A stretch of 31,729 nt of DNA, taken from IMG/VR virus record IMGVR_UViG_3300029448_000219, positions 1 through 31,729 of that record; one strand, 5' to 3'. This document shows, piece by piece, positions 7,644-31,051 of the stretch; position 1 is the stretch's first letter, and the number at the start of each line of letters is the position of its first letter. The notes beneath the pieces are model-generated. The model was not told the DNA's origin, did no database searches, and saw only the letters and a program-made list of their open reading frames with translations. Position numbers and translations under genes: made by a program. The DNA is from a virus.

Positions 7644-9266
7644 ATGACAATTACATTAAGACAAGAATCAGCCACAGGAGCAACAACGAAGGGTTCGACG
7701 CTGACCTTTCAAGAATTAGATAACTCATTCATCGATCTTTTACAAAACAAATTGATTCCAATTCAAGTGGACGCAGACACAGGTTCAGTCAAAGTTGGTA
7801 GAGCACAGGAAAACGGTGTGCTCACAGTGACAGGAGCAGGTGGTATCACAACCACAGTGACAGAAGATTCAGCAGGCAATGCCAATTTAACCATCACAAA
7901 AAGCACAGACGAATTAGGAGTGTTTGAAATTGTGGGTGGTTCAAACATAGAAGCAACCAAACCAGATTCAGCAGGCGCAGTCACATTGGAAGTCACAAAT
8001 CCAGCAGAGTTAAATGTGGATGGTGCTGTGGTATTCACAGCAAAAAACACATCAGGTAGTACCATTGAAAAAGGACAGGTGGTTTATATCTCAGGTCACG
8101 ATGGAACCAATCCCACAATAGGTTTAGCAGATGCAGACGATGCCGCCAAGATGCCAGCATTTGGATTGGCCAACGAACAGATCACAAATAACAACACAGG
8201 TAAAATCATCACATATGGTCCAATCACCAACATCAACACATCATTCTTTCAAGCAGGAGAAGAATTGTTTGTGAACACCACAAATGATTCTGCAGGTGAC
8301 ACAATCACCAGCACAGCACCAACAGGTGAATCAGGACTGATACAAAAAATAGGTAAGGTGATTAGAAGTCACGCATCCACAGGCACAATATTTGTGACAG
8401 GTGCAGGCAGAACCAATGCCACACCTAATCTAAACAACAACAATATTTTTATAGGTAATGGATCTAATCAAGTTTCAACCACAGCATTCGCAATCAGTCT
8501 AGACAGCACCCCACAACTATCCGGAAATTTGGATGTGAATGGCAACAAAATTGTTACTGTATCAGGCAACGCCAATCTAAAATTATCTCCACACGGCACA
8601 GGTGTGGTAGAAATTGAAGGTGATGGTGTTTCAGCAGACGGCACAATACAATTGAACTGTTCACAGAACTCACATGGTATCAAATTGGCATCTCCACCTC
8701 ACTCAGCCGGACAATCATACACAATTACTTTTCCTAGCACAGCACCAGGTGCCAACAAAATATTCCAAACAGATGCAAACGGAGATTTAAGTTTTGTGGA
8801 TCTACCTACAGGAGGTGATTCAGTACAAGAAGGTGACAACATTTCAATCACATCACCAGATTCAGCAGGTGGTAAAACAATAGGATTTAGAAATCCACTT
8901 AACCAACCAGTGGTGGGCGGTGATCAAACATTCAGTCAGATCAATCTAAAAGATTATTCAGAAACAGTTTATACATCAGGCACAACAACAGGTACAATTA
9001 CTCCAGATGTGGCCAACGGCAATGTTCAATCAATCACACTGACAGGTTCAATCACATTCAGTGCATTCTCAAATGCGGCGGCAGGACAATCAATGACCAT
9101 GATCATAAGACAACCATCATCAGGTGGTCCTTACACATTGACATCCACAATGAAGTTCGCTGGAGGCACAAAAACTTTAAGTACAACAGCAGATGCATAT
9201 GACATTATGACTGTGTTCTATGATGGCACAAATTACTTTGCATCTCTGTCAACCAACTTTAGTTAA
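7644..9266 (+). CDS. Tail fibre protein
   Basis: 540 residues. The N-terminus contains TLTFQELDNSFIDLL, a helix common at the start of marine phage fibres and probably the virion anchor. The body is rich in Thr, Ser, Gly and Asn, with many short beta repeats (GDNISITSPDSAGGKTIGF), as in trimeric beta-helical fibres. The last 40 residues (MKFAGGTKTLST...FYDGTNYFASLSTNFS) are nearly the same protein sequence as the end of the fibre at 28692. It contains DSAG four times and HSAG once. Start: AAGGAG 8 bases before the ATG. It should bind a host surface receptor, though no enzymatic domain is seen. Confidence 0.8.
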   Translation: MTITLRQESATGATTKGSTLTFQELDNSFIDLLQNKLIPIQVDADTGSVKVGRAQENGVLTVTGAGGITTTVTEDSAGNANLTITKSTDELGVFEIVGGSNIEATKPDSAGAVTLEVTNPAELNVDGAVVFTAKNTSGSTIEKGQVVYISGHDGTNPTIGLADADDAAKMPAFGLANEQITNNNTGKIITYGPITNINTSFFQAGEELFVNTTNDSAGDTITSTAPTGESGLIQKIGKVIRSHASTGTIFVTGAGRTNATPNLNNNNIFIGNGSNQVSTTAFAISLDSTPQLSGNLDVNGNKIVTVSGNANLKLSPHGTGVVEIEGDGVSADGTIQLNCSQNSHGIKLASPPHSAGQSYTITFPSTAPGANKIFQTDANGDLSFVDLPTGGDSVQEGDNISITSPDSAGGKTIGFRNPLNQPVVGGDQTFSQINLKDYSETVYTSGTTTGTITPDVANGNVQSITLTGSITFSAFSNAAAGQSMTMIIRQPSSGGPYTLTSTMKFAGGTKTLSTTADAYDIMTVFYDGTNYFASLSTNFS

Positions 9267-9275
9267 GGAGACACA

Positions 9276-10703
9276 ATGCCATTAGGTATAGCAAGATTAA
9301 ACACATTATCCAAAGTTTTAGCAGAGGAAGTTGATCCAAGAACATTTGATTCAGTGCCAATAACTGTGTCAGGTGATGCTCAAATCAGCACAGCACAATC
9401 AAAGTTTGGAGGATCAAGTATCCTGTTTGATGGCACAGATGATGCTGTGGATCCAGATCACACACTGCTAAACATAGGTTCAGGCGATTTCACTATAGAA
9501 TTTTGGATTTATGTAACAGATTTTACCACTGTGTATGGCAGATACTTTTTTGACACAGGCAGTGGAGTGTCAGGCAGACTGAATGCATTCTTTGATACAG
9601 CAACAACATTCAAAATCAGATCAGGTAACACAGTGCTGTTGTCAGGCAGTCACGGCATGAGCACAAACCAATGGTATCATTTGGCCATTATGAGAGAATC
9701 AGGCACTATACGATTTTATAGAGATGGCACATCATTAGCAAGTGCTTCAAACAGCACAAATTTTACCAACAACGATTACAAGATAGGTTCATATCTCACA
9801 GGCGGAGGATTTGGCGTCATAGGTTATATAGATGAATGGAGACAGTCAGATTCAGCAAGATATTCAGGCACATCATTCACAGTGCCAACCTCAGCATTTG
9901 AACCAGATGTTAACACAAAACTATTGATACATGGTGACGGCGACAACGGAAGCACCAACATTGTAGATGATCCACCTTTCGCACCACATCTTGAAGCAGT
10001 CACATTTGATGGGTCAAACAATTACATGAAACACACATCATCGTCAGGTTGGTCAGATTCAAAACAATTCACAATCTCAATATGGTTTAGAGCAAGTTCT
10101 CTGCATGATGGATTTCTTTTTGACATAGGTAACTCATCAATCACACAATCATCACATCTGTATCTTGAAAGTGATGGAGGCATCATATTGGGATTCAAAG
10201 ATGGAGATAATTCATACAATCAGAAACACACCATCACATCATCTGATTCCGCAAAATACGCCGCAAACACCTGGTATCATCTGTTGGCAAGTGTGAGAAC
10301 AAATAGTTCTGCAACAGCATACTTCTACAAAAATGACACAGTGTCTGATGGCACTTGGTCAGACCATTTCAATTCAAATATTGATTGGACAAGAAATCAA
10401 TACTCAATTGGATCAAAAATTAATGAAGGAAACAAATTTAATGGTGATTTAGGACCCATATGGATAGATAACACATACCTTGATATCACGGTGGAAAGCA
10501 ACAGAAGAAAATTTATTTCAGCATCAGGCACACCAGTGGATCTTGGTAGTGATGGATCAATACCAACAGGATCGCAACCCAAAGTGTATATCAGAGGTGA
10601 GGCCAGTGTTTGGAATTCAGCAGACAACAACAAAGGTTCAACATCAGATTATTCAGAGATAGGTGGAACGATAACAGATTCCAGCAACGAACCTATTGGT
10701 TAA
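9276..10703 (+). CDS. Double LamG (concanavalin-A-like lectin) adhesin
   Basis: 475 residues. Two LamG/Laminin_G_3 domains are visible. The first spans about 38-205, with KFGGSSILFDGTDDAV, FTIEFWIYV, and RFYRDGTSLAS followed by YKIGSY. The second spans about 245-410, with TFDGSNNYMKH, FTISIWFRA, TWYHLLASV and YSIGSK. Such domains bind sugars and are common on phage tails. ATG has AAGGAG 5 bases upstream and lies nine bases after the fibre stop. It likely sits at the fibre tip or as a separate spike. DSAR and DSAK occur but no DSAG. Confidence 0.82.
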   Translation: MPLGIARLNTLSKVLAEEVDPRTFDSVPITVSGDAQISTAQSKFGGSSILFDGTDDAVDPDHTLLNIGSGDFTIEFWIYVTDFTTVYGRYFFDTGSGVSGRLNAFFDTATTFKIRSGNTVLLSGSHGMSTNQWYHLAIMRESGTIRFYRDGTSLASASNSTNFTNNDYKIGSYLTGGGFGVIGYIDEWRQSDSARYSGTSFTVPTSAFEPDVNTKLLIHGDGDNGSTNIVDDPPFAPHLEAVTFDGSNNYMKHTSSSGWSDSKQFTISIWFRASSLHDGFLFDIGNSSITQSSHLYLESDGGIILGFKDGDNSYNQKHTITSSDSAKYAANTWYHLLASVRTNSSATAYFYKNDTVSDGTWSDHFNSNIDWTRNQYSIGSKINEGNKFNGDLGPIWIDNTYLDITVESNRRKFISASGTPVDLGSDGSIPTGSQPKVYIRGEASVWNSADNNKGSTSDYSEIGGTITDSSNEPIG

Positions 10704-10724
10704 ATATAACAAAGGAGAACACAC

Positions 10725-11369
10725 ATGCCCACATGGCCATCAGGATCAAAAGCAAGTACCAGCAATGTTGATTCGCCAACAGACAGCATCACCAGTGCAA
10801 GAGCAGACATTCAGCAGAACATCAGCAATGTGAATGATATCATAGACACATTCAACATCGCATCTCCCACAGATGGAGATCTTTTACAGTATTCATCATC
10901 CTCAGGCAAATGGGAACAGGTTGCTACCAGTTCAGTGGGTGCCCAAGCGAACATAGTGGCGTTTGACAGCACAGTGAATGAAGATTCAACAGGCACTCCT
11001 TCAGATTATGCCAGCACATTCACAGTGACAGGAGGTGGTTCAATCACAACCAGCACCAACACACTCACAATACCAGCAGGTGTTTTTGTGCTACAAACAT
11101 TGGGATATATCTTCCAAAGCACAGCGTCAACTGCCCCATATAATTCAGACGACATTGAAATAAGATTGATTGATAACACAGGCACAGTGTTGGCAACCAG
11201 CGTTGAAAAAAGTGTAACTGCCGCTGGTGGTAAGTTTTTCTTTGGATTTAACACACATTTCACACTGGCATCACAAACTGTATGTAGAATAGAACTTGAT
11301 ATTGATGATAGTGAGGGTCTATTAACCAGTTATCAATTACCACCAATGTTATTTCTAAAAATTAGTTAA
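10725..11369 (+). CDS. Short tail fibre with MPTWP-type N-terminal anchor
   Basis: 214 residues. The N-terminus (MPTWPSGSKASTSNVDSPTD...ISNVNDIIDTFNI...GDLLQYSSSSGKWEQV) matches the plan of the fibre at 28692, which also begins MPTWP and has a VNDIVDF helix then a VLVYNASTSRLEV strand. This is probably a shared virion-attachment domain. The C-terminal half is a beta-rich domain with alternating strands (TIPAGVFVLQTLGYIFQS), like a C1q/TNF-type or knob fold. It should act in host binding. Start has AAAGGAG upstream. Confidence 0.7.
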   Translation: MPTWPSGSKASTSNVDSPTDSITSARADIQQNISNVNDIIDTFNIASPTDGDLLQYSSSSGKWEQVATSSVGAQANIVAFDSTVNEDSTGTPSDYASTFTVTGGGSITTSTNTLTIPAGVFVLQTLGYIFQSTASTAPYNSDDIEIRLIDNTGTVLATSVEKSVTAAGGKFFFGFNTHFTLASQTVCRIELDIDDSEGLLTSYQLPPMLFLKIS

Positions 11370-11417
11370 TAAATAAACAAGTTATAACAACAAAAACCTT
11401 TAAAGGAGGATAAAATC

Positions 11418-11831
11418 ATGTCGGCATTGTCAAATCAATATGAGAATAAAATTCTTAATCATATTTTGAACAATACTGCTCTAACACAAGGAACTGTTTA
11501 TGTGGGACTATTCACAGGCAGTGCTTCCTCTAACCTAGAGCAATCTATCTTAACAAACGAAGTGTCAGGCAACGGATACAGCAGACAATCTGCTACATTC
11601 GGTGCGGCATCATCAGGATCAGCATCTAACTCAGGCAACTTAACATGGACTGCAAGTGGAGGTGCCTTTGGCACAATCACAACAGTGGCCCTGATTAATG
11701 CGTCAGGTTCAACTGATTCAGCAGGTGAGGGCGATGTAATCGCTTATGCTACATTGGCGGCTTCCAAGGACATACAAGATGGAGATTCATTCCAAATAAG
11801 CACTGGTAATCTTACACTTACACTTGCTTAA
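11418..11831 (+). CDS. Tail fibre-like protein (Gp80-type)
   Basis: 137 residues. The opening MSALSNQYENKILNHILNNT followed by YVGLFTG and later GYSRQSATFG matches the phage family typified by mycobacteriophage Gp80-like fibre proteins (xLTNYxENxLLNHL...LYVALFT...GYARVxVTF). The loop before DVIAYATL carries a DSAG that the family, as I remember it, lacks. Strong ribosome site (AAAGGAGG). Likely a small beta-sandwich at the tail end or head surface. Rated high on family, moderate on location. Confidence 0.7.
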   Translation: MSALSNQYENKILNHILNNTALTQGTVYVGLFTGSASSNLEQSILTNEVSGNGYSRQSATFGAASSGSASNSGNLTWTASGGAFGTITTVALINASGSTDSAGEGDVIAYATLAASKDIQDGDSFQISTGNLTLTLA

Positions 11832-11850
11832 TTAGAATAGGAGTCTCACA

Positions 11851-12867
11851 GTGGCAGATATCCTATATGTAGTAGATGGATATGTCGCTAATGGCTATGT
11901 TCAAGCGACGAGAATATCGTCCGCATCACCGTCAGCAACATCCACACTAACAGTCAGTGGCGGAGTAATTCGTCAAGGACAAGCCACTCTCAAGGCAAAT
12001 CAATCAGGACTGACATGGGCCGAAATGGGCACATGGGAAGAACCTATACAAGAATATTGGGGTCCTAATTTTATTGTTTCAGCACAGAAGTTTCTAGGCG
12101 GTACAGCGAATATGAATGCTGTTGCCACAGCATCATCATCTGCAATATTCACAGCAAATCCTACAATCGATTTAGATGGAGTGATGAGTGCCACAATGAC
12201 AGCAAACATTGTGGGTTCAGGCATTGTGATTCCTGCAGGAACTTTTACAGCAACCATTGTTGGTAATAGAATAGGAAAAACAAGTGCCAGTGTATCAGCA
12301 ACAGGAGCCAGCACAGCAACTGGTGTCCTACAAGCAAAAGCATCAAGCACACCTACAATACAAGGCACATTGTCCTCTACTGGCAACAGCACACTGCAAG
12401 GTTCAGGTACATCAGCATCAACCACAAGTGCGTCTATTGATGGCGATGCTACGAAAAGAAGCACAGCGACAGCAAACAATACTCTCACAGTTTCAGCCAG
12501 TGGTATTATAGCAATCGGCGGGAGAGCAACTCCAACAGTCACTGCAACTTTAAACATTCCAAACACAGGAGTATTAATAACCAGAGGCACAACAGCAACC
12601 GCAACAACAACTGGTTCATTAAATGTTGTGGGAGGAATATTGGCAGACGGTACAGCCACAATGGGCGGAATATTGTCCACACTGTCTATAGGAAGTCAAT
12701 TTGCTATTGATCCGTTTAGAGTGCTTACTATTGACACAGAGAACCGTATAAATATCTTACAACAAGAAACCAGAAACCATCTTGTGCCGAGTGAAACCAG
12801 AAAATATCAAGTGCAACACTTATCACTGGTAGATGAGACGGGAATATTAGACAGGAGAGAAGGATAA
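11851..12867 (+). CDS. Thr/Ser/Ala-rich structural protein
   Basis: 338 residues from GTG 11851, with ATAGGAG upstream. From about residue 85 to 285 it is a low-complexity series of Thr, Ala, Ser and Gly with short repeating beta strands (STATGVLQ, STPTIQGTLSSTGNSTLQ), likely an extended fibre shaft or surface decoration. The last 50 residues (FRVLTIDTENRINILQQETR) form a more conserved-looking end domain seen in phage structural proteins. It sits among fibres and just before a small Ig-like gene. Exact position in the virion unknown. Confidence 0.6.
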   Translation: MADILYVVDGYVANGYVQATRISSASPSATSTLTVSGGVIRQGQATLKANQSGLTWAEMGTWEEPIQEYWGPNFIVSAQKFLGGTANMNAVATASSSAIFTANPTIDLDGVMSATMTANIVGSGIVIPAGTFTATIVGNRIGKTSASVSATGASTATGVLQAKASSTPTIQGTLSSTGNSTLQGSGTSASTTSASIDGDATKRSTATANNTLTVSASGIIAIGGRATPTVTATLNIPNTGVLITRGTTATATTTGSLNVVGGILADGTATMGGILSTLSIGSQFAIDPFRVLTIDTENRINILQQETRNHLVPSETRKYQVQHLSLVDETGILDRREG

Positions 12868-12870
12868 TTC

Positions 12871-16290: not shown

Positions 16291-16304
16291 TTGTAAGGTT
16301 TGTG

Positions 16305-16562: not shown

Positions 16563-16723
16563 TGACTTCAGGCAGTATGTCTGCTTTTGTTGGTGACCGA
16601 CCAAGCAAAAGAAAATTCAAATTAAAAATAGGAGCAAATATCATGGCAACTAGAGGAAAAAAGAAAAATTCTATGGCTAAAGGTAGAAAATCATCTACAA
16701 GAGGCAAAAAGAAGAAGAGATAA
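16553..16723 (+). CDS. Tiny lysine/arginine-rich protein, protamine-like
   Basis: 56 residues from ATG 16553, overlapping the previous gene by ten bases, with GGAG 11 bases upstream. A better ribosome site (TAGGAG, 8 bases) precedes an in-frame ATG at 16643, which would give 26 residues beginning MATRGKKKNSMAKGRKSSTR. In either case the end is nearly all Lys, Arg, Gly and Ser. Such a protein should bind nucleic acid or a negatively charged scaffold. It is not a family I can name. Position between portal and scaffold suggests packaged DNA or prohead assembly. Confidence 0.5.
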   Translation: MAIVTSGSMSAFVGDRPSKRKFKLKIGANIMATRGKKKNSMAKGRKSSTRGKKKKR

Positions 16724-19764: not shown

Positions 19765-20178
19765 ATGGCAACTTTTGAAGGTTCGCAAGGCGCCGTTCGT
19801 ATCATCGATACAGCGGATTCGGCTGGCTTCGGTAAGAACATTGCTGAGGTTCGTTCTTGGACAGTGGAACACACTAAAGATGTGATCGAAGACACTGCTA
19901 TGGGCGACACGGCAAGAACTTACAAGCACGGCTTACAACAATTCACGGGATCAATGGAAGTGATATATGATTCAACTCATACAGTCACTACAAGAGCATT
20001 TGATCCAACGCACGAAGATGCATTGACTGTTGAATTTTATCCAAATGAAACAACTGGACAAAAATTCACAGGTTCAATCTTGGTAACATCTGTATCAAGA
20101 ACAGCATCATTCGACGATTTGGTGACTGCAACTGTGAATTTCCAAGGCTCAGGCGCACTAACAGTGGGATCTGCGTAA
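19765..20178 (+). CDS. Major tail tube protein
   Basis: 137 residues. Starts MATFEGSQGAVRI and has VRSWTVEHTKDVIEDTAMGD and TGSMEVIYDST, which match the beta-sandwich tube proteins of siphoviruses (hexameric ring with an inner beta barrel). The C-terminal TASFDDLVTATVNFQGSGAL completes the fold. It has the strongest ribosome site of the region (AAAGGAGG), as expected for an abundant protein. DSAG lies in the N-terminal loop after RIIDTA. Position before the tail chaperones supports the call. Confidence 0.82.
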   Translation: MATFEGSQGAVRIIDTADSAGFGKNIAEVRSWTVEHTKDVIEDTAMGDTARTYKHGLQQFTGSMEVIYDSTHTVTTRAFDPTHEDALTVEFYPNETTGQKFTGSILVTSVSRTASFDDLVTATVNFQGSGALTVGSA

Positions 20179-21017: not shown

Positions 21018-22926
21018 TAAAACATCGGGAGCTCTAAAAAGAACAAAAAACCAGGTTGTACAATTAAACAGCAGTTTAATTGGCACAGGTAGATTGGCAC
21101 GACTGGCTGGTACTGCCCTTGTGGCAATTGGAGCGGCAAGAATAGCAAAAGCAATTCTAAACACTGCCGCACAATTCCAAGACTTAAGAATTGCATTGGC
21201 ATCTGTTACAGGATCTATCAAACAAGGTAGAGAAGCATTTGATTTCATACTAGATTTTGCAAGAACTTCAATATTTGAAGTTAGTGATTTAACAAACACT
21301 TTCATTAAATTAAGAGGGGCAGGGATTGAACCCACTAGAAAACTTTTAACCACTTTCCAAGATGTTGCGGCGGTATCGGCAGATAGAATAGGTACTTTAC
21401 AAGCAATCACAGACTTGTTTGCTAGAACAACAGCAGGGGGTTTAGGACTAGAAGAATTAAACAGATTAGGAGACAGAGGTATTCCTGTCTTCAAGATGTT
21501 GGAAGACACACTAGGTTTATCTAGATTAGAAATATCCAAAGTAGGACAGACAGCAGAAGGTGCCACATTAATATTAGATGCATTACAATTCAGTATCAAC
21601 AATGCTTTTGGTGGATCATCTGCACTACTAACAACCAATTACAGTCAAGCAGTATCAAACTTGAATGACGCATTCTCCAGTTTGGCAGACACAATAGGTC
21701 AAGGCTTTTTGCCTGTGTTGACAGATTCAATCAAAAAGATTTCTCAAGGCACAGGAGACTTCAATGAACTAGGAAGAAGTGTTGGTATAAAAGTTGGCGC
21801 CGCATTGGCATTGATTGCTGAGGGTTTTTTAATAATTGCTCAAAACTTTAAAATAATTTTAGGATTATCATTAGGATTATTCTTCGTTAAATTGGCAGGT
21901 GCGGCGATTAGATTGTCAGGTGCCATATTCCTAGTTGGTTCGTCAATTGTAAATGGAGTACTTGCTCCAGGCAAAGGATTATTAAATCTTTTCAAAAAAT
22001 TAATACCAGCATTAGGTAAAATTACACTGGTTGCCTCAGGAGCATTTGTGGCATTCGAATTTGCTACAAAAATATTAGATGAATTCGACAAGAAAGCAAA
22101 AGAAGTTGAGCAGTCAATTAAAGACAACAATGCTCAATTGGAAGAAAACGAAAAAAGAATCAAAGCACTAAAATTATCTATTGAAGATGCCAGCGGTGTG
22201 ATTGCAAAATTTAGAAAAAGATTAACAGGTATTGGAAAAGCATTGATGATAGATGCATCCATAAAAGGTTTCCAAAAATTAGATCAAGAAATACAATTAT
22301 CCACAGGTTCAGTAGAGATTGCCACTGAAGCATTTATGACATTCACAAAAGGCATAGGAGATGCTTTTGCAGATGCAATATTCGATGCTAAAAATTTAAC
22401 AGAAGCATTATCTAACCTTGCAAGAACAGTGGTCAAACAGGTTGTTGCCAGTATTATTACACTTGCAATTCAAATCATGATCTTGGACAAATTAAGACCA
22501 GTGTTCGAGAAGATGGCAGAAGGTATTAGAAAGAAGAAAAACGAACAAGACAAATTAAACAATTCTTTAAAAACAGAAATAGGATTGAGAGCAGTGTTGG
22601 CACTATTCGGCGGTGGAGGCGGAGGTGGTATTCCGTTCCTTGCAGATGGTGGTTCATTGCAAAGAGGACAACCAGCGATTGTTGGTGAAGAAGGACCAGA
22701 GTTATTTGTTCCCAACAGTTCGGGCACCATTGTGCCAAACAACATGATGCCACAAGCAGGTTCATCAACAGGTTCAGCAATGGGCGGAGATGTCCATGTG
22801 AACTTCAACATCAACACTGTGGATGCATCAGGATTTGATGAACTTCTAGTTGGAAGACGCAACACCATTGTGGGCATAATTAATCAAGCATTAACAAAAA
22901 GAGGCAAACAAGGAGTAACCGGCTAA
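20980..22926 (+). CDS. Tape measure protein
   Basis: 648 residues. Sets tail length and helps pass DNA. The N-terminal third (KIELVVVDKTSGALKRTKNQ... FQDLRIALASVTGSIKQG, ISKVGQTAEGA) matches TMP_N/Phage_tape family domains. A hydrophobic span near 270-335 has several possible membrane helices, followed by a charged coiled coil (about 365-420). The C-terminus has a Gly run and the sequence ADGGSLQRGQPAIVGEEGPE followed by LFVPNSSGTIVPN, typical of tape measures. By the rule of about 0.15 nm per residue the tail would be near 100 nm. ATG has AAGGTG; its stop overlaps the next ATG. Confidence 0.9.
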   Translation: MAEQVKIELVVVDKTSGALKRTKNQVVQLNSSLIGTGRLARLAGTALVAIGAARIAKAILNTAAQFQDLRIALASVTGSIKQGREAFDFILDFARTSIFEVSDLTNTFIKLRGAGIEPTRKLLTTFQDVAAVSADRIGTLQAITDLFARTTAGGLGLEELNRLGDRGIPVFKMLEDTLGLSRLEISKVGQTAEGATLILDALQFSINNAFGGSSALLTTNYSQAVSNLNDAFSSLADTIGQGFLPVLTDSIKKISQGTGDFNELGRSVGIKVGAALALIAEGFLIIAQNFKIILGLSLGLFFVKLAGAAIRLSGAIFLVGSSIVNGVLAPGKGLLNLFKKLIPALGKITLVASGAFVAFEFATKILDEFDKKAKEVEQSIKDNNAQLEENEKRIKALKLSIEDASGVIAKFRKRLTGIGKALMIDASIKGFQKLDQEIQLSTGSVEIATEAFMTFTKGIGDAFADAIFDAKNLTEALSNLARTVVKQVVASIITLAIQIMILDKLRPVFEKMAEGIRKKKNEQDKLNNSLKTEIGLRAVLALFGGGGGGGIPFLADGGSLQRGQPAIVGEEGPELFVPNSSGTIVPNNMMPQAGSSTGSAMGGDVHVNFNINTVDASGFDELLVGRRNTIVGIINQALTKRGKQGVTG

Positions 22927-23651
22927 TGGCTTATATAGGATTTTTCAACGGCACAAGTTCAGTGCTTTCAAATGTGAATCAAATTGGATTCAGATCAGTA
23001 AATTTTAAACAAAGAACACAAACAGTGGTCACTAAAACAATTTCAGGTAGAACCATAAGAACACAACAAGCCACAACACTGTGGGAAGGCACACTGGAGT
23101 TTCCTGCACTGACACACAAAGAATTTAGACAGGTACAAGGATTTGTGGCATTGGCACAAGGTTCATTAAACGAATTTGATATCATACTGCCCAACATATC
23201 ATCAAGAACAGCAGGCGGTACATTGCACAATCTATCTGTAAAAGACAACACAGCGGCAGGTAGCACAACCATAGCGGCATATCAAACTTTAGACTCTGCA
23301 GGACAACCTATAAAAGGAGATGGAGATTCAGCAGGTTACACACCAGCAGATGGATTCACAATATTGAACATGGGTGACATTATAAGATTTGACAATCATA
23401 ACAAAGTGTATATGTGTACTTCAGATGTGACACCAGACACATCAGGAGATTTTGATATTCCAATACAACCAGCACTTACCACAGCAGTGGTAGGTTTAAC
23501 TGGCAAAGACAACAGCAATTTTTCCACAATAACAGAAATCAATTATGACGATGTGGCATTCAGAATGATTTTCAAAACCGATTCACAAGATTATAGATAC
23601 AATGTGGATGGCACAGTAAGTTTTAGAGTAGATGTAGAAGAGGTGCTTTAA
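22926..23651 (+). CDS. Distal tail / minor tail protein
   Basis: 241 residues. An N-terminal beta domain (WEGTLEFPALTHKEFRQVQG and GFVALAQGSLNEFDIILPN) recalls distal tail proteins and DUF2460-like proteins that start the tail tip. A middle insertion carries two DSAG copies 12 residues apart (TLDSAGQPIKGDGDSAGY). The end is a strand-rich domain (YRYNVDGTVSFRVDVEEVL). It is flanked by one-base TAATG overlaps. Assigned from order (tape measure, then distal tail). Confidence 0.6.
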   Translation: MAYIGFFNGTSSVLSNVNQIGFRSVNFKQRTQTVVTKTISGRTIRTQQATTLWEGTLEFPALTHKEFRQVQGFVALAQGSLNEFDIILPNISSRTAGGTLHNLSVKDNTAAGSTTIAAYQTLDSAGQPIKGDGDSAGYTPADGFTILNMGDIIRFDNHNKVYMCTSDVTPDTSGDFDIPIQPALTTAVVGLTGKDNSNFSTITEINYDDVAFRMIFKTDSQDYRYNVDGTVSFRVDVEEVL

Positions 23652-24232
23652 TGACTAGGGAATTTCCAAGCAACTTGCAGACTTATCTAGCAGGCAACAG
23701 TCTTATTGAAGTATTTCTAGTTTCAATTCAAACAACCACGGGCACAAACTATTTTACCTCAGCACCTTATGATATCACATTTGATTCACAAACATATCAA
23801 GCACAAGGTGATTTTTTAACACTGAGTGAAGGACAAGAAACAGCAGAACTACAGATACATTCTGTGAATATAATTTTAAGTGCTGTGGATGTCAGCAATG
23901 TGACCACATATGGTGTCAGCGGCATCATCAACAAAGATGTTGAAATACGCAGAGCATATCTAGATCCAATCACACTGCAATTGCAAGGTGACAGTGCCGG
24001 CGATGCTGTGTTCTTAGCATTCAAAGGCAAGATAGCAGGATATCAAATCACCAACAATGTTAACACAGCGGACATACAACTACAAGTTTCAAGTCAATTC
24101 ATAAACTTTACAAGGAAAGCAGGACGCAGATCCAACCTTGTTAGTTTTCAAAGAGAACATCCAACAGATTTTTCAATGCAGTATTCACACGAAACATTGA
24201 CTGATATCTTTTGGGGTAGAAAAGGAATATAA
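23651..24232 (+). CDS. Minor tail protein, DUF2163-like
   Basis: 193 residues. SLIEVFLVSIQTTTGTNYFTS, then DITFDSQTYQAQGDFLTLSE, and VEIRRAYLDPITLQLQ with KGKIAGYQI match the DUF2163/gp13-type tail-hub proteins of gene transfer agents and siphoviruses. DSAG (QLQGDSAGDAVFLAFKG) sits at a loop where the family, as I know it, is shorter. The C-terminus ends at TDIFWGRKGI. It probably forms part of the hub under the tape measure. Overlaps are TAATG on both sides. Confidence 0.65.
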   Translation: MTREFPSNLQTYLAGNSLIEVFLVSIQTTTGTNYFTSAPYDITFDSQTYQAQGDFLTLSEGQETAELQIHSVNIILSAVDVSNVTTYGVSGIINKDVEIRRAYLDPITLQLQGDSAGDAVFLAFKGKIAGYQITNNVNTADIQLQVSSQFINFTRKAGRRSNLVSFQREHPTDFSMQYSHETLTDIFWGRKGI

Positions 24233-24699
24233 TGATTAGAGAGTGCATGATAGATGACATCAACAAATTGATTGAATGTATTGATCTACTACAATCAGTA
24301 AATGATGTGCCCACATCAAATCAAGTGGACAAAAATTTTCTAATTGAAAATCTTAAAAAAGGCATGGTGTCTCCGCAACACAAAATAGTGGTAAAAGAAA
24401 CTGCAGACAAGATTGTGGCTTTTGCAATTGGTTCAGTGTCACAAAACATACACAACAGCAAAATATATGGAGAAATAACTTATATGTTTGTGCATCCAGA
24501 AATGATGAACCAAACAGTATCACAACAATTGTTTGATCAATTGGTGGAATGGTTTAAAGAACAACAGTGTCAATATCTTATAGCACTGCCCAGCATATGG
24601 AATCAAGATTACACAGCAAACGACACATTAGAAGACATAAAAAAATTTTACACAAACAATTGTAATCTAGTAGGTTACACATTTATAAAAGGACTATAA
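24232..24699 (+). CDS. GNAT-family N-acetyltransferase-like protein
   Basis: 155 residues. N-terminal IRECMIDDINKLIECIDLL matches beta1-alpha1 of GNAT enzymes; KIVAFAIGSVSQ and GEITYMFVHPEMMNQTVSQQ form the central strands and the acetyl-CoA-binding turn, though the usual R/QxxGxG/A is degenerate (MMNQTVSQ). The C-terminal FYTNNCNLVGYTFIKGL matches the last GNAT segment. The catalytic state is uncertain. It lies in the tail-tip row, where many phages encode an NlpC/P60 peptidase. Confidence 0.7.
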   Translation: MIRECMIDDINKLIECIDLLQSVNDVPTSNQVDKNFLIENLKKGMVSPQHKIVVKETADKIVAFAIGSVSQNIHNSKIYGEITYMFVHPEMMNQTVSQQLFDQLVEWFKEQQCQYLIALPSIWNQDYTANDTLEDIKKFYTNNCNLVGYTFIKGL

Positions 24700-25157
24700 T
24701 GCTTGAATGGAGAACAACCACAATTGAAGATTGCGAACAATTGTCGCAAACAATCAATCATACAGATGCACAAGAACTGTATGACGCAACAGGTTTGAAT
24801 CCTTATCAAGGTTTAGTGATGTGCGTAAAATTGTGTCCAGATTGTGAAACAGCAATCAATGAACACAATGAAGTGTTGGCCATCAGAGGCGTACAAAAAT
24901 TAAACACACACGGTATGGTTTGGGCAATTTTGACCAAACAAGCATACACCAAAGCAGGTTTTAAACAAGCAATGCAAGAAACTAAACAATGGGTTGTAAA
25001 TAAAACTGAACAATATAAAAAATTAATGAACTTTGTAAGCGAAGAAAATCAATCGGCAGTTAGATGGTTAAAGTACATAGGATTTTCTATAACAAAAAAA
25101 ATAGATCATTATGGTTATTCAAAAAAACCATTTTTACAATTTGAAAGGGTGTTATAA
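24699..25157 (+). CDS. GNAT-fold protein resembling T7 gp13 (DUF2833)
   Basis: 152 residues. MVWAILTKQAYTKAGFKQAM followed by a helix and NFVSEENQSAVRWLKYIGFS, then FLQFERV, resembles T7 internal virion protein gp13/DUF2833 (a W-x-V/L-T-S/K ... K-x-F-R/K ... N..HIRFL..IGA pattern) and ordinary GNAT enzymes. N-terminal EWRTTTIEDCEQLSQTINH also fits. The resemblance is by eye. The usual R/QxxGxG acetyl-CoA loop is absent. As the second GNAT in a row before the tip protein, it may modify a tail-tip component or be a structural leftover. Confidence 0.6.
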   Translation: MLEWRTTTIEDCEQLSQTINHTDAQELYDATGLNPYQGLVMCVKLCPDCETAINEHNEVLAIRGVQKLNTHGMVWAILTKQAYTKAGFKQAMQETKQWVVNKTEQYKKLMNFVSEENQSAVRWLKYIGFSITKKIDHYGYSKKPFLQFERVL

Positions 25158-27952
25158 TGTGTATATGTTGTTTTGATGCAGATACAGAAATAAAATTATC
25201 CAACGGTGAAGTCAAAAAGATAAAAGACATCAAACCGGGTGATCAAGTGTTGGGTATGGATAAAAAAGTGAACACTGTAAAAAAGGTTGAAAAACCTATC
25301 ATCCATTTTAGAAATTTATATTCAATAAATGACACAAAACCATTCACAACAGCAGAACATCCTTTTAAGACACCACAAGGTTGGAGCAGTATAAAAAACA
25401 ATCGCAGTTTGTTTGATGCTGACACATGGGCAAACTTTTTTGAAAAGTTTTCTAAAAATTGTAAAAAAATATTGCCAGGCACAGTCCTAATCAATGACAA
25501 ACAAGGCAAAGTAAAGGTAGAAAAAATTACACCACACAAACGATGGAAAGACTTTTTCAAATCAGTTTACAATTTACAACTGGACGGTAATAACACATTC
25601 TACGCCAACAATTATCTTGTACACAACAAAGGCGGTGGTGGTACCATAGGTAAAATTATTGGTGGAGTGGTCAAAGTGTTCAAAAAAACTGTGGGTAAAA
25701 TATTTGATTTCATAGGTGATGTGATTGGCTTTGTGTTCAAACCATTTGGTATCCCAGACATTCCAGATTTTTCAGCAGAAAATTCTGCATCAGGTGTAAA
25801 ACTGCAAAAACCAGGAACCAATGTGGGTTTCCCAGTGGTGTATGGTTTTAGAAGAGTAGGTTCAGTGCCTGTGTATGCAGAAACAAATGGTTCAGACAAT
25901 CAAGATTTATATGTGGTGTATGCCATATGTGAAGGAGAAATAGAAGGCATCAGAAACATCAAAGTGGATGGCAACTCAATTGGCAATTCAACTGCTGTCT
26001 ACACAGCAGGACAAGAACTGAATGCAGGTTATCCTTATGATGGCGGCAGAATGGTGTTTCAATGTTTCAACGGCACAGAAAATCAAACACAATCCTCATT
26101 GATGTCCGGATCTGCAAGTTGGGGCAACAAACAGAGAACACTGCCAGGACTAGCATATGTGGCGGCAAGATTTAGATGGATAGCAAGTGATCAAACAGAA
26201 TCAGATCGTAATCCTTTTGGTGGCGGTATTCCTGCACTTGAATTTGATGTGTATGGCAAAAAAGTTTATGATTTAGCCACACACTCAGGAGGTTTAGACC
26301 TTGCAAATGATTATGCCAATCTAACAAAAACCTATTCAACCAACCCTGCCAATTGTTTGTTGGATATATTAATGAATCCAAGATATGGAGCAGGCTATGA
26401 CAAGAGTTTTATCAATGCAGATTCATTCAAAACAGTGGCTACCAAATTAAATCAAACAGTGGTGCATGATGCCAATGATCCTGCCAATTCCACAGCAAAA
26501 ATTATAACTTGTAATGGTGTGTTGAACACAGAATCAGAAATATTACAAAATGTAAAAAAGATTTTATCAGGTTGCAGAACCATGATGCCATTTGTTGAAG
26601 GTAGATACAAATTAAAAGTTGAAGATGGAGGTCATCCTACAGACATCACTTCAAGCACAGTGGCTATTGCATTTGATGTCACAGCAGATCATATTGTGGG
26701 TGCAATTAATCTTTCAGGTGAATCAAAAGAATCCAAATACAATCAGGTCTTGGTGAATTACATAGACCCAGATGAAGAATTTTCATCACAGCAAGAATTT
26801 TTCAATACCACAGGAGATTTAGCAATAGATGACAATGAAACACTCACAGGTGAATTTACATTTGACACCATGACCAACAGAGCGATGGCCAAAGACTTTG
26901 CTAGACTGATCTATCAAAAATCAAGAAATCAAAGAACCATAGCATTCAGTGCCACGCAAGAATTAATGAATGTGGAAGTGGGTGATGTGATCAGAGTGAC
27001 AGATACTGTGCTCAATCTTAATCAAGCCACATTTAGAGTGGTAGCAATGACATTGCAAAATGACAGCACAGTGAGATTAGAAGGTGTAGAACATGATGCC
27101 ACAATATATCCACACATATCAACACCACAAAAAGAAATTGCACCACAAATATTCAAACCCAACACAGTGTACAACTATGTGAGAACAGCATCACAAAATG
27201 CCGCTCCAGAAAATTACAACAACGGTACTACATCAGCACCACCTCTACTGACTTATCAATTGGCACCACAGGTAAACGAGTATTCAACAGCAACCACAGG
27301 CGCTGGACCCGGCAATGTCACTTTGCCAAATACTCATCAATTGGTAGATCAAGATTCATTTGTGCTACAACACAAGGATACATCCAAAAGAATACTGTTT
27401 GGAGGTGCCATAGACATTCAAACCAATCAAGGATACAGACCAATTGCCTACAACAACACCCAAGTCACAAGAGCCTTAAATATGCAGTTGTTTGTGTCAC
27501 CACCTAAAGGGTTTTTACAATTTGAAATGGTGATTGACATTTTTCAAAATCAGAAACGATTAACAACCATTAGAAATTCTATTGCAGTAACGAACGCAAC
27601 ATCACAAAGTCCGGGTGGAGGAATTTTCGGAACACCTCAAATACAAGTTCCTGTCACAAGAATAGATATGACGCCTATTATTGTTCCTCTTCATCCTGCG
27701 TTCAGTTATCAAATCAGATACAAAAATTCAACTGCAGGACAAAGTTATGTTGTGTTGGGTGACACCAACACATGGTCAGGTTTTACCAATCATCAATACA
27801 AAGTTAATGGCAAAGAATTTATAGACACAGGATTGGAAGGCATGGTGAACTATGTGGCCAACAATTATGCAATCAGTGTGGCACAATTTCCAAATGGATC
27901 AAACTTTGTTGCCAAAACAGGTGGAAGTGTGAACATGGGAGGTACACCATAA
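25157..27952 (+). CDS. Central tail tip (TipJ-like) protein with N-terminal Hint domain
   Basis: 931 residues. Residues 5-157 form a Hint/intein-like domain (see the separate entry). After it come KGGGGTIGKIIGGVVKVFKK and FVFKPFGIPDIPDFSA, then a tip-protein core: GTNVGFPVVYGFRRVGSVPV, YVVYAICEGEIEGIRNIKVD, and RARFRW/ANCLLDILMNPRYGAGY, as in lambda J and TipJ-type proteins. The C-terminal half is beta-rich with fibronectin-like patches. J-like proteins normally begin M-G-K-G-rich, so cleavage after residue 157 would give a normal-looking N-terminus KGGGG. It binds the receptor or hub at the tail end. TAATG joins it to neighbours. Confidence 0.82.
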   Translation: MCICCFDADTEIKLSNGEVKKIKDIKPGDQVLGMDKKVNTVKKVEKPIIHFRNLYSINDTKPFTTAEHPFKTPQGWSSIKNNRSLFDADTWANFFEKFSKNCKKILPGTVLINDKQGKVKVEKITPHKRWKDFFKSVYNLQLDGNNTFYANNYLVHNKGGGGTIGKIIGGVVKVFKKTVGKIFDFIGDVIGFVFKPFGIPDIPDFSAENSASGVKLQKPGTNVGFPVVYGFRRVGSVPVYAETNGSDNQDLYVVYAICEGEIEGIRNIKVDGNSIGNSTAVYTAGQELNAGYPYDGGRMVFQCFNGTENQTQSSLMSGSASWGNKQRTLPGLAYVAARFRWIASDQTESDRNPFGGGIPALEFDVYGKKVYDLATHSGGLDLANDYANLTKTYSTNPANCLLDILMNPRYGAGYDKSFINADSFKTVATKLNQTVVHDANDPANSTAKIITCNGVLNTESEILQNVKKILSGCRTMMPFVEGRYKLKVEDGGHPTDITSSTVAIAFDVTADHIVGAINLSGESKESKYNQVLVNYIDPDEEFSSQQEFFNTTGDLAIDDNETLTGEFTFDTMTNRAMAKDFARLIYQKSRNQRTIAFSATQELMNVEVGDVIRVTDTVLNLNQATFRVVAMTLQNDSTVRLEGVEHDATIYPHISTPQKEIAPQIFKPNTVYNYVRTASQNAAPENYNNGTTSAPPLLTYQLAPQVNEYSTATTGAGPGNVTLPNTHQLVDQDSFVLQHKDTSKRILFGGAIDIQTNQGYRPIAYNNTQVTRALNMQLFVSPPKGFLQFEMVIDIFQNQKRLTTIRNSIAVTNATSQSPGGGIFGTPQIQVPVTRIDMTPIIVPLHPAFSYQIRYKNSTAGQSYVVLGDTNTWSGFTNHQYKVNGKEFIDTGLEGMVNYVANNYAISVAQFPNGSNFVAKTGGSVNMGGTP
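25169..25627 (+). other. Hint domain (intein-like, probably self-cleaving) in the tail-tip gene
   Basis: Block A: CFDADTEIKLSNGEVKKIKD, with Cys5 as the first residue of the domain. Block B: TTAEHPFKTPQGW, holding the TxxH site. C-terminal blocks: FYANNYLVHNK, with His156-Asn157 as the cyclising pair. The residue after Asn is Lys, not Cys, Ser or Thr, so full splicing is not expected. Only MCIC precedes Cys5. C-terminal cleavage at Asn157/Lys158 (nt 25627/25628) is the most likely reaction, as in bacterial intein-like (BIL) domains. About 153 residues, a usual mini-Hint size with no homing endonuclease. Confidence 0.8.
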
Positions 27953-28692
27953 TGGCAAGCAACGGATATTTTGATCAGTCATCAGGCACTTACAAATCAT
28001 TGCCGACAGAAACTTGGGCTTCGTACACCAATTGGAGCACATTTACTTCTTGGGCTGGCACACCATCAGACACCGTTACATTTTCAACAGAAATATTTGA
28101 CGGCGGCAAGATAGATTATTTCAACCCCACAGTGTTGGTGGATGCCAGCATTCCTGTGGACATAAAAATAAATCATGGCAACACAGTGGATTCATCAGGT
28201 GGTGCAATTGATTCACCGACCACTGTTAATTTAACACCCAGCACTGCCACAGTGGCAGGCATACAAGCAAGATTTTTTCAATTTGATATCACACTCAACA
28301 GAGACAGTGCCACACAGGCAGATCCAGAAATATTCTCAATAGATGTCAATCTATCTAATCAATTGAAACAGGTACAGCAATCAGACATAGACACCAGCAC
28401 ACTGGCGGGTTCTGTGGGTGCTAGACAATTGAGTTTCAATGTGCAAACAGGTAAAATTGTTAATCTATTGGTGCAAATACACAGTTCAACACTGAACACA
28501 GATTCGGCAGGAGATAGTGTCACACCCATGGTGTTTGTTGACAAGACATCATCACCTGCTGTATTAAATATATTCGACATAGACACATACGGTAAAAGAA
28601 CAAGAGTGGACTGTGTGGTAGATGTTCAAGCAACAACACTGCCCTTGCTACAAACAGATGTGGACGGCAACCTAGTGGAGGTAAATGACTAA
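27952..28692 (+). CDS. Minor tail / fibre-base protein
   Basis: 246 residues, nearly all beta. The N-terminal 85 residues include a Trp-rich pattern (TETWASYTNWSTFTSWAG). Later segments alternate strands (FFQFDITLNRDSATQADPEI, VGARQLSFNVQT). DSAG and DSSG occur once each. I do not recognise a family. It is joined by TAATG overlaps to the tip protein and the next fibre, so it may be the adaptor between them. Confidence 0.55.
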   Translation: MASNGYFDQSSGTYKSLPTETWASYTNWSTFTSWAGTPSDTVTFSTEIFDGGKIDYFNPTVLVDASIPVDIKINHGNTVDSSGGAIDSPTTVNLTPSTATVAGIQARFFQFDITLNRDSATQADPEIFSIDVNLSNQLKQVQQSDIDTSTLAGSVGARQLSFNVQTGKIVNLLVQIHSSTLNTDSAGDSVTPMVFVDKTSSPAVLNIFDIDTYGKRTRVDCVVDVQATTLPLLQTDVDGNLVEVND

Positions 28693-30053
28693 TGCCAACT
28701 TGGCCAACCAATAAACCAGATTCAAATAGATTTAATTCTGATTCTGATTCTATCAAACAATCAAGAACTGAATTGAAGACAATGAGTGACGCAGTCAACG
28801 ACATTGTTGATTTCATAGACACCACAGGCATAGGAGCAGGCAAAGTTCTTGTGTACAATGCTTCTACTTCTAGACTGGAAGTTGGAGAAAATTTATTAAA
28901 CATTTCAGCAGGCACAAACATCACAATCGACAATGACAGTGCTGGCGGTATCACTATTAATGCCACAGGTGGTCTGTCAAATCCGCTTACAGCAAATTTA
29001 GAAACAAATGAATTTACCATAGGTCATCTTCAAGGAGATGATTCAGCAGGTGGTGAATCCACTGCCATGCGTTTCACAGACAACGGTGAAATACATTTAT
29101 TCACATCAGGAAAATTCACTGGTTCTAGCGGTGGCGCACATGAAGTTAAATTGGCCAACGCAAAATTTGATAGATTTTTTGATGCAAACCCACCAGGTCC
29201 TGGACCTGCAGGCGACAACAACAATTATGGTCCAATCAGTTTGTTCAGTCAGGATCTACATACCGACGATTCGGCTGGTACTTCGGGTTCAGCCAAAATA
29301 GGTGTGTTGAATAATGGCGATGGAGTGCTCATATCGACTACAAAAACAGATGGAGGAACCACTTTTACCGGTGAAATAAAATTAAATCAAAGGAATGGTA
29401 TACTATTAAAAAATTCAAGCAATCTATTTGACAGTGGTGGCGAGGATGTATCAGGTATCACACTGCAAACCACAGCAGGTAATGTGCGTTTGGAACCAAA
29501 CAACACCATCTATCTCAAATACACCAACTGGCCCACTTCAGATGGATCATCAGGACAAGTTTTACAAACAAATGGTTCAGGACAATTAAGTTGGGCGGCA
29601 AATGGTGGTCAAGATATTACAGCAGGAGATAACATCACAATATCTTCACCAGATTCAGCAGGTGGCATCACAATCAGTCAAAGTCAATTGAATGCTACAC
29701 TCAACATGAATGATCAGCAGTTGACCAACATGGCAATAAAAAATTATGGAGAGATTGTGCATGATTTAGGCACAACAAGTGGTACATTAACGCCAGATCC
29801 TAACAACGGCAGTGTGCAGAAAATTACATTGAACAATAACTTAACACTTAATTCATTAAGCAATGTGGCAAGTGGCGATTCAATGACACTACTTGTGACA
29901 CAGGACGGTACAGGTGGAAGAACTTTGAGTTCCACAATGAAGTTTGCGGGAGGAACCAAAACATTAAGTACTGGTGCCAATGCAATTGATGTGATCACAA
30001 TATTTTATGATGGTACAAATTATTTGGCAAGTTTAAGCACCAACTTTAGTTAA
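28692..30053 (+). CDS. Second tail fibre protein
   Basis: 453 residues. Begins MPTWPTNKPDSNRFNSDSDS, with a VNDIVDFIDT helix and VLVYNASTSRLEV strand, matching the anchor of the fibre at 10725. The C-terminal part (AGDNITISSPDSAGGITISQ and SSTMKFAGGTKTLST...FYDGTNYLASLSTNFS) is nearly the same protein as the end of the fibre at 7644, while the DNA is well diverged. It thus joins the N-terminus of one fibre to the C-terminus of another. It has four DSAG copies. It should bind the host surface. Confidence 0.8.
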   Translation: MPTWPTNKPDSNRFNSDSDSIKQSRTELKTMSDAVNDIVDFIDTTGIGAGKVLVYNASTSRLEVGENLLNISAGTNITIDNDSAGGITINATGGLSNPLTANLETNEFTIGHLQGDDSAGGESTAMRFTDNGEIHLFTSGKFTGSSGGAHEVKLANAKFDRFFDANPPGPGPAGDNNNYGPISLFSQDLHTDDSAGTSGSAKIGVLNNGDGVLISTTKTDGGTTFTGEIKLNQRNGILLKNSSNLFDSGGEDVSGITLQTTAGNVRLEPNNTIYLKYTNWPTSDGSSGQVLQTNGSGQLSWAANGGQDITAGDNITISSPDSAGGITISQSQLNATLNMNDQQLTNMAIKNYGEIVHDLGTTSGTLTPDPNNGSVQKITLNNNLTLNSLSNVASGDSMTLLVTQDGTGGRTLSSTMKFAGGTKTLSTGANAIDVITIFYDGTNYLASLSTNFS

Positions 30054-30136
30054 TAAAAGGTGTCTTACTGCGTCATACAACAACGCACAAGGGCCTTAAA
30101 CAGAAAAGATATACAAAGATATATGACAACCAAATT

Positions 30137-30144
30137 TATAAATA
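30137..30144 (+). promoter_or_regulatory. TATAAATA late-promoter-like box before the last fibre gene
   Basis: Exact TATAAATA in the 112-base gap at 30054-30165, 21 bases ahead of the ATG at 30166. It matches the boxes at 7612 and 18458. The gap otherwise shows only a weak 5-bp inverted repeat (TGCGT/ACGCA) and no terminator. Confidence 0.45.
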
Positions 30145-30165
30145 AAACAACACAAGGAGAACATT

Positions 30166-30597
30166 ATGGCTTGGGCAAATCCCTCTAACATAGTCACAAC
30201 AAATTTAGACGATGCAACAGATTCACCAGCATCAGCTCGTGCAAATCTAAAGACAGCACTGGATGAATTGAGCAATGTCATTAATGGTAGAAACACAGCA
30301 AATGGTGTGCCCGGATTGGATGCTTCATCAAAAATATCTGCCGCACAACTGCCAGATGAAATCAATTCTTCTTCTTCAACAGATTTAACATTGGACCCCA
30401 GCACAGGCAAGGTCAAGTTGGAAGAAATACTAAATCTAAAACCACAAACCACAGCACAATTGAATGCAAGATCAGACAAGGCGGCAGGAGATGTTGCTTT
30501 CTGTTCTGACGCGGGAGATGACAGTGCTGGCGTGGGTGCTTTGGCAGTGTGCGATGGCACAGCCTGGCGTGTGGTACAATTGGGTGCAACAATCTAA
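30166..30597 (+). CDS. Short fibre / structural protein
   Basis: 143 residues. N-terminal half MAWANPSNIVTTNLDDATDS with the helix SARANLKTALDELSNVI recalls the anchor of the other fibres (DSITSARADIQQNISNVNDI at 10725). The middle has a fibre-style linker (VPGLDASSKISAAQLPDEIN), a motif common just before fibre tips. The end contains VAFCSDAGDDSAGVGALAVC followed by DGTAWRVV, a compact domain with two cysteines and one DSAG. AAGGAG precedes the ATG. Confidence 0.65.
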   Translation: MAWANPSNIVTTNLDDATDSPASARANLKTALDELSNVINGRNTANGVPGLDASSKISAAQLPDEINSSSSTDLTLDPSTGKVKLEEILNLKPQTTAQLNARSDKAAGDVAFCSDAGDDSAGVGALAVCDGTAWRVVQLGATI

Positions 30598-30761
30598 TGA
30601 AACTGCAAGATTTAGAAAAACGCATCTCTAAAATAGAACGCACATTGGACAAGATAATGAACAACCATCTTCACCATATCCAAGGCTACCAATTTTATAT
30701 CCTAGCATTGACAGGTCTGATTGTGACCATGTTGATTGGCATTTTCATCAAGGTGATGTAA
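30597..30761 (+). CDS. Small coiled-coil / one-TM protein, holin-like
   Basis: 54 residues. A charged helix (MKLQDLEKRISKIERTLDKI) is followed by a short His-rich turn and a C-terminal TM helix (FYILALTGLIVTMLIGIFIK). TAATG links it to both neighbours. The layout (N-terminal coiled coil, C-terminal TM) is seen in small phage membrane proteins, including some class of holins and spanin-like proteins. No endolysin is present in the window, so the role is open. An in-frame start further upstream at 30549 would lie in the previous gene and is rejected. Confidence 0.6.
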   Translation: MKLQDLEKRISKIERTLDKIMNNHLHHIQGYQFYILALTGLIVTMLIGIFIKVM

Positions 30762-31051
30762 TGGGACGACCTAACATTACCAGTTTCAAATATCGCGACG
30801 GTTGGAGCAAATACTCAATCAAAAGACCCAAAATGACTTCTGAACAATTTCATTCCAAAAAAAATCAATGTGAAGAATGTAAAGGCACAATATTTTTGGC
30901 GGAAAAACCCATGAGTATGCACCCCTACTACAGAACCTATGGTTATCAAACCAAACGAGTGACATGGAGAATAAGATGTGCCACCAAAAATTGTGGCGAA
31001 CCTTATTGTGTGATACTCAAACCGGATTATTGGGACTCTGCTGGAGAATAA
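30761..31051 (+). CDS. Cys-rich (zinc-ribbon-like) hypothetical protein
   Basis: 96 residues, basic. NQCEECKGTIFLAEKPM supplies a CxxC pair, and later RIRCATKNCGEPYC a C-x4-C-x4-C set, suggesting a zinc-binding knuckle. There is an RDGWSKYSIKRPKM segment at the start. It ends YWDSAGE, so a DSAG lies at the very C-terminus. TAATG joins it to the small TM gene. The stop TAA is the first half of a TAAATA box at 31049. Possibly DNA-binding; family not recognised. Confidence 0.6.
   Translation: MGRPNITSFKYRDGWSKYSIKRPKMTSEQFHSKKNQCEECKGTIFLAEKPMSMHPYYRTYGYQTKRVTWRIRCATKNCGEPYCVILKPDYWDSAGE

Follow-up and report, generated by a model that had tools for sequence, protein, structure and literature searches.

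The tetrapeptide Asp-Ser-Ala-Gly (DSAG) occurs 16 times, in nine genes, in the 31,729-base virus record analysed here in full (G000, hereinafter the window). The window encodes a siphophage; its genes include those for TerL, portal, scaffold, capsid, tail terminator, tube, tape measure, distal tail and hub proteins and a gpJ-like protein. It is well supported that DSAG is a linear, protein-level motif of virion exteriors and that it characterises a whole phage clade. We tentatively favour the interpretation that selection has planted the motif and that its Ser is modified, most likely through O-glycosylation by a phage-encoded transferase, with gene 6666 as the leading candidate (genes are designated by their leftmost coordinate).

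A six-frame scan places all 16 copies in frame on the + strand and finds none in the other frames or on the opposite strand of the window. Every position reported by the first-pass annotation, which was made from the sequence alone, agrees with the scan: four copies in the fibre at 7644, four in the fibre at 28692, two in 22926, and one each in 11418, 19765, 23651, 27952, 30166 and at the C-terminus of 30761 (Table 1). That annotation had estimated an expectation well under one copy. For the window gene set of 10,142 residues, 0.235 copies are expected under independent residues, and within-protein shuffles (n = 1000) give a mean of 0.27 and a maximum of 3, nowhere near 16. The second-commonest tetrapeptides of the same gene set reach 5 copies, no tetrapeptide whatever rises above 6 copies in 300 shuffles, and the 23 alternative permutations of D, S, A and G are found 0–3 times each. 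Ser is encoded by TCA in seven copies and by TCT, TCG and AGT in three each, consistent with the earlier claim of a protein-level feature written in unrelated codons. The 16 copies are not all independent, because the two fibres have homologous segments around 8859 and 29652, and the copy at 31034 may be due to chance. A 132-nt segment with 74% identity is also common to the two fibre genes at their 3’ ends (9135–9266 and 29922–30053), which represents a duplicated C-terminal tip. The observation is real, and it is much stronger than a sequence-only reading could know.

The nearest public record to the window is DSL-LC06 (OR003941), described in the accessible part of its paper as a metagenome-assembled lake phage of the proposed family ‘Nanhuiviridae’ with a predicted Pseudomonadota host (PMC10611076); that part does not mention the motif. 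In a TerL tree, the window groups with DSL-LC06 in a clade of 61 rows, L027 among them, with 100/99 support, apart from HTVC111P-type pelagiphages and other relatives. The clade consists of uncultured aquatic siphophages with genomes of ~30 kb and a common late-gene order (fibre, terminase, portal, capsid, tube, tip). DSL-LC06 follows the same order and carries 8 DSAG copies, but it lacks gene 7141 and has other accessory glycosyltransferase genes. All DSAG-bearing rows of the tree lie within the 61-row clade and none among the 33 others, with few apparent losses.

In a non-redundant clade set of 174,495 residues (clustered at 70% identity), 141 copies are present where 4.26 are expected, a 33-fold enrichment, in counts that include non-independent homologous copies and derive from mechanical gene calling on contigs many of which are fragments. 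By the same score, SETR ranks next, with 41 copies. The sister set (80,318 residues) contains 2 DSAG against 1.4 expected. The first-pass annotation had made the special meaning of the motif depend on its enrichment in close relatives, and these are enriched too. Specifically, in most near-complete clade genomes no other tetrapeptide scores as high as DSAG, which reaches 7–16 copies per genome against about 0.2 expected. A search of DSAG-poor relatives and sister phages for a substitute tetrapeptide of equal enrichment was negative. A scan of IMG/VR for two nearby DSAG-coding strings, which covers part of codon space, returned 16 contigs that are either clade members or unrelated contigs without DSAG excess, and no second lineage with the trait. 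In L134/L135 (G012), L061, L089 and L056, the tube protein is 35–37% identical to that of the window, as if through gene replacement; DSAG is nearly absent from G012, L061 and L089, and L056 retains it in its fibres. A literature search for a DSAG motif returned nothing, and one on phage virion glycosylation returned no paper describing such a sequon. To our knowledge, no comparable tetrapeptide has been described, namely one enriched 33-fold over a whole phage clade at ~50 separate sites in a dozen non-homologous outer virion proteins.

The enrichment is confined to virion proteins of exterior type, in agreement with the placement proposed from the sequence. Specifically, exterior-type families, a class assigned by protein family, contain 129 copies against 3.4 in shuffled sequences, while interior proteins and enzymes contain 4 against 1.1. 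No copy is present in the tape measure (17,612 residues), portal (8,257) or TerL (4,045) proteins of the non-redundant clade set, and in the sole TerL copy, carried by L001, DSAG derives from a PDAAG motif through an A-to-S change. The earlier statement that terminase, portal, scaffold, capsid and tape measure lack DSAG holds for the window but not for the clade, in which 20 of 54 capsids carry DSAG at one loop. In the predicted model of the tube protein (mean predicted local distance difference test score, pLDDT, of 75), residues 16–22, which comprise the DSAG loop, have the lowest values, below 50, as would be expected for a flexible loop.

Asp, Ser and Gly of the motif are strict, and the third residue must be small, with Ala the best. 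In the clade, replacement of Ser by Thr abolishes the enrichment (DTAG, 5 observed against 4.8 expected, 1.0-fold), as do replacements of Asp (NSAG 1.0-fold, ESAG 0.3-fold), of Gly (DSAA, 1 against 4.3) and of Ser by other residues (DAAG, 6 against 4.2; DNAG 0.3-fold; DGAG 1.2-fold). With small third residues, enrichment is 6.3-fold for DSSG, 4.9-fold for DSTG and 3.8-fold for DSGG, none of which is enriched in the sisters; DGTG is enriched 6.1-fold in the clade. Large aliphatic third residues give observed/expected counts of 1/3.7 (DSIG), 5/4.4 (DSLG), 3/3.6 (DSVG) and 2/1.1 (DSMG).

The clade copies occupy ~51 distinct aligned sites in 11 protein families, in alignments made per family and uncertain for the fibres. 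At many of these sites relatives have zero residues, so there DSAG arrived with an insertion. At the 23325 copy, this is the case for 19 of the 21 spanning relatives without DSAG. The distal tail protein carries the insertion TLDSAGQPIKGDGDSAG in the window and a similar one in L010, and a different insertion, GLTDSAGAVT, is present in L012. The L009 homologue of 10725 contains QPDSAGQP, and 10725 of the window has no DSAG. In the tube hairpin, DSAG is constant while loop length and flanks vary (TADSAGFGKN, AGDSAGGSN, SVDSAGANTNT, GTDSAGEVA). The motif is also present in Pro-rich linkers of gpJ-like proteins (PVDSAGTPIVDSAGIPIVDSAGE in L131, DPEDSAGPTPTPTPP in L041). The first-pass annotation considered the loops at 11418 and 23651 to be shorter in the families. 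The former is indeed shorter in three relatives (Table 1); the latter is short in 3 of 15 others, but the site is usually DSAG, DSSG, DSGG or DSTG. Alignment to homologues bears out frequent insertion, and because relatives carry DSAG at other sites and in other proteins, common descent accounts for only part of the distribution.

The nucleotide sequences of the motif are diverse. The 141 clade copies are encoded by 43 distinct 12-mers, and at the same orthologous sites of tube and hub, Ser is encoded by TCN in some sequences and by AGY in others. The Ser codon AGT before Ala has a frequency of 0.47 against a clade background of 0.45, and the Ala codon GCA before Gly 0.67 against 0.69. Because codon usage within DSAG matches the normal codon-pair background, selection acts on the peptide. 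Separately, C|G codon junctions are avoided clade-wide: Ser is encoded by AGC in ~2% of cases where an Ala codon (GCN) follows, and Ala by GCC in ~2% of cases where a Gly codon (GGN) follows, each compared with 13% overall.

These features would be explained if selection repeatedly plants DSAG in exposed loops and linkers of outer virion proteins, namely fibres, the Gp80-like fibre, tail tube, distal tail, hub and central tail proteins, and the capsid of relatives. Its Ser would be the acceptor of a covalent modification, probably introduced in the cytoplasm, either ahead of assembly or as it proceeds. The modification would most likely be O-glycosylation by a phage-encoded transferase, and the whole particle would gain a glycan coat that may serve adsorption, shielding or solubility. 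It is possible, and we put it with more reserve, that the clade evolved a sequon, D-S-(A, less often S/T/G)-G, together with a dedicated Ser-directed enzyme, and that the sequon spread by repeated insertion from capsid to tail tip. The suggestion of a surface-loop motif for binding or glycosylation in the first-pass annotation is in this sense the best remaining reading, supported by exterior placement and frequent insertion.

The best candidate for the enzyme is 6666, which would act alone or with neighbours, by analogy with Maf flagellin O-glycosylation. Iterated profile searches over 20 genomes, including 12 DSAG-rich and 6 sister genomes, identify it as the only non-structural gene present in 12 of 12 DSAG-rich and 0 of 6 sister genomes. 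Its gene group lies directly upstream of the fibre, a region in which DSL-LC06 has additional genes annotated as sugar enzymes. The AlphaFold2 model of the 180-residue protein (pLDDT 90.6) aligns in VIA-align with SteA (Z 10.2), HPPK of M. jannaschii (Z 9.3), thiamin pyrophosphokinases (Z 9.2) and the sialyltransferase CstII (Z 9.2 over 160 residues, rmsd 4.2), and a GNG-x-S motif is conserved at the N-terminus. This set of folds includes transferases that use CMP-sugars. Searches placed 6666 in no named transferase family: Pfam gave no match above noise for eight relatives, PDB profiles gave none, and Foldseek gave nothing below E 0.001 (best E 0.07).

Several observations weigh against the modification reading or against 6666 as its enzyme. 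The DSAG-poor relative G012 retains the gene, the match in the DSAG-rich genome G013 is weak (E = 0.01), and a remote relative is present in phage C48C1, which has no DSAG enrichment. Because DSAG and 6666 each trace to one clade, their co-occurrence amounts to roughly a single evolutionary event. Because SteA and the pyrophosphokinases match at equal Z, 6666 may not transfer sugar. Tests of the pattern of general O-glycosylation in Bacteroidota failed, both for Thr in place of Ser (DTAG, 5/4.8) and for Ile, Leu, Val or Met at the third position with a free fourth (DSAA, 1/4.3). DSAG is almost missing from the LamG protein 9276 and from protein 11851, which are both probably exterior, so an exterior position does not suffice for the motif. 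The modifier could be a host enzyme instead, and all clade members are metagenome sequences with no cultured host. Large cyanophages with remote relatives of 6666 and 7141 are not DSAG-rich.

The motif may alternatively act without modification, by docking a decoration protein, a chaperone or a host-surface ligand through many weak contacts over the particle, which we regard as rather unlikely. Its placement across head, tube, tip and fibres and its strict linear specificity would suit docking, and structural proteins 11851, 12871 and 20184 are present in 12 of 12 DSAG-rich genomes (in 1, 1 and 0 of 6 sisters, respectively). But exclusion of Thr would be more typical of a Ser-directed enzyme than of a binding pocket, no recognisable DSAG-binding domain was found, and capsid and tube are unlikely to contact a receptor.

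The first-pass annotation also considered a preferred tight turn. According to this explanation, DSAG is the favourite Asp-x-x-Gly hairpin of the clade, kept by folding and carried along with beta-rich fibre modules. Many copies do lie in hairpin-like contexts, and the 4–6-fold enrichment of DSSG, DSTG, DSGG and DGTG is in keeping with it. However, DSAG exceeds every other DxxG at least 5-fold, the turn-compatible DTAG, DNAG, DAAG and DGAG are not enriched, and a turn would not be expected to exclude Thr, Asn and Gly. Sister-clade structural proteins show no DSAG, and the motif occurs in Pro-rich linkers and is gained at new sites. We consider a turn preference doubtful.

A further possibility is that the host reads the motif, with a host enzyme modifying or binding it and the clade having adapted after a host shift. 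The trait arose once with the clade and was lost in few lineages, and no phage enzyme besides 6666 is universal, which speaks for this account. Against it, the one metagenome-assembled genome (MAG) that holds a clade contig, from Porticoccaceae, shows no excess of the DSAG pattern on its other contigs, where 1.9 Mb contain ~14 matches compared with 13 of the control pattern, in a bin whose membership proves little. We find this account improbable. A DNA-level repeat, local duplication or gene conversion, or plain common descent, for which speak the few copies shared by homologous segments of the two fibres and the several sites that are orthologous across relatives, is contradicted by the codon data, by the restriction of copies to the coding frame and by the new sites gained in relatives, and is very improbable. 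The same very low standing goes to a proteolytic processing site, an option raised earlier for a motif that is short, exposed and Asp- and Ser-specific, because the virion would fall to pieces with up to four cuts per fibre and one per tube subunit, and the scanned proteins of the window included no recognisable protease family.

If DSAG is a modification sequon, the modified sites are predicted in advance, together with a few candidate enzymes, which makes virion glycosylation in environmental phages directly testable; the motif would also be a small peptide tag with which surface loops could be labelled enzymatically. If it mediates docking instead, a ligand distributed over the whole virion is implied. 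In both cases the motif is a strong sign of selection, overlooked when genes are annotated one by one.

Among other genes, 5688 is present in 10 of 12 DSAG-rich and 0 of 6 sister genomes. For 6666, 5688, 7141 and 1422, no clear family emerged from profile searches against Pfam, PHROG and PDB. As the modifying enzyme, 7141, 5688, 865, 1422 and the GNAT gene 24232 were set aside, each being missing from some DSAG-rich genomes. Gene 7141 (7141–7620) encodes a 149-aa protein just upstream of the fibre with weak DUF6875 matches only, and its relative in Synechococcus phage Sf-FR1 adjoins baseplate genes.

Table 1. Coordinates of the DSAG copies and of candidate genes in the window
Feature	Coordinates	Strand	Location or description
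DSAG (GAT TCA GCA GGC)	7866..7877	+	fibre 7644-9266; VTEDSAGNAN site also in L009, L042, L133
DSAG (GAT TCA GCA GGC)	7965..7976	+	fibre 7644-9266
DSAG (GAT TCT GCA GGT)	8286..8297	+	fibre 7644-9266
DSAG (GAT TCA GCA GGT)	8859..8870	+	fibre 7644-9266; segment homologous to 29621-29674
DSAG (GAT TCA GCA GGT)	11715..11726	+	Gp80-like fibre protein 11418-11831; loop shorter in L009, L003, L007
DSAG (GAT TCG GCT GGC)	19816..19827	+	tail tube protein 19765-20178, first beta-hairpin loop
DSAG (GAC TCT GCA GGA)	23292..23303	+	distal tail protein 22926-23651, insertion
DSAG (GAT TCA GCA GGT)	23325..23336	+	distal tail protein 22926-23651
DSAG (GAC AGT GCC GGC)	23990..24001	+	hub-type tail protein 23651-24232
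DSAG (GAT TCG GCA GGA)	28501..28512	+	protein 27952-28692
DSAG (GAC AGT GCT GGC)	28935..28946	+	fibre 28692-30053
DSAG (GAT TCA GCA GGT)	29040..29051	+	fibre 28692-30053
DSAG (GAT TCG GCT GGT)	29268..29279	+	fibre 28692-30053
DSAG (GAT TCA GCA GGT)	29652..29663	+	fibre 28692-30053; homologous to 8859 copy
DSAG (GAC AGT GCT GGC)	30520..30531	+	protein 30166-30597
DSAG (GAC TCT GCT GGA)	31034..31045	+	C-terminus of 30761-31051; otherwise only in L025
6666, candidate modifying enzyme	6666..7208	+	small predicted nucleotide-binding domain, GT42 sialyltransferase / MptE / thiamin pyrophosphokinase fold
5688, clade-specific protein	5688..6593	-	KpsC-like annotation in DSL-LC06; second-rank candidate, glycan handling
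1422, putative GT-A-type glycosyltransferase	1422..2204	+	DAD at residues 119-121, both Asp invariant in five relatives; not universal

In relatives L016 and L031, the genes of 30166–30761 adjoin those of 865–1422, and the window therefore resembles a near-complete genome in circularly permuted form. The gpJ-like central tail protein (25157–27952) has an N-terminal Hint (hedgehog/intein-type) domain at residues 1–160 (Pfam Vint and Hint), which seems absent from relative L007, where the match begins only at residue 158. Between hub and gpJ, the tail operon contains two acetyltransferase-like genes, 24232–24699 and 24699–25157 (GNAT; T7 Gp13-like), and the same slot in HTVC111P, HTVC112P and HTVC026P is annotated as toxin-activating or RTX acyltransferase. 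The clade contig L142/L143 (NZEU01000001.1) sits in the Porticoccaceae MAG MED754, a weak hint of a gammaproteobacterial host.

Maf glycosyltransferases are described as carrying out cytoplasmic O-glycosylation of Ser/Thr of flagellin, a surface appendage (PMC11339370, PMC4065374). The proposed system would resemble the Maf/GT42 system in that a cytoplasmic transferase decorates Ser/Thr of a surface appendage, and 6666 has a predicted GT42/MptE-like fold, although with 180 residues it is shorter than CstII (chain 1ro7_C, 243 residues). Maf accepts Thr as well and is not known to need a strict sequon of four residues, whereas in the clade Thr is not enriched and the motif occurs in a dozen unrelated proteins. 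The general O-glycosylation motif of Bacteroidota, D(S/T)(A/I/L/V/M/T), belongs to a periplasmic system; it has the same Asp-Ser-Ala core and is likewise a short linear motif in many proteins, but the clade shows no enrichment of Thr or of large aliphatic third residues and requires a fourth Gly. Some mycobacteriophages have glycosylated virions, with phage-encoded glycosyltransferases and modified capsid and tail proteins, and we know of no fixed tetrapeptide sequon of the DSAG kind in them. Immunoglobulin-like domains, of about 90 residues, occur on head, tube and fibres of one virion and are thought to add weak surface contacts. Like them, DSAG is a repeated accessory feature of the virion, but it comprises four residues only.

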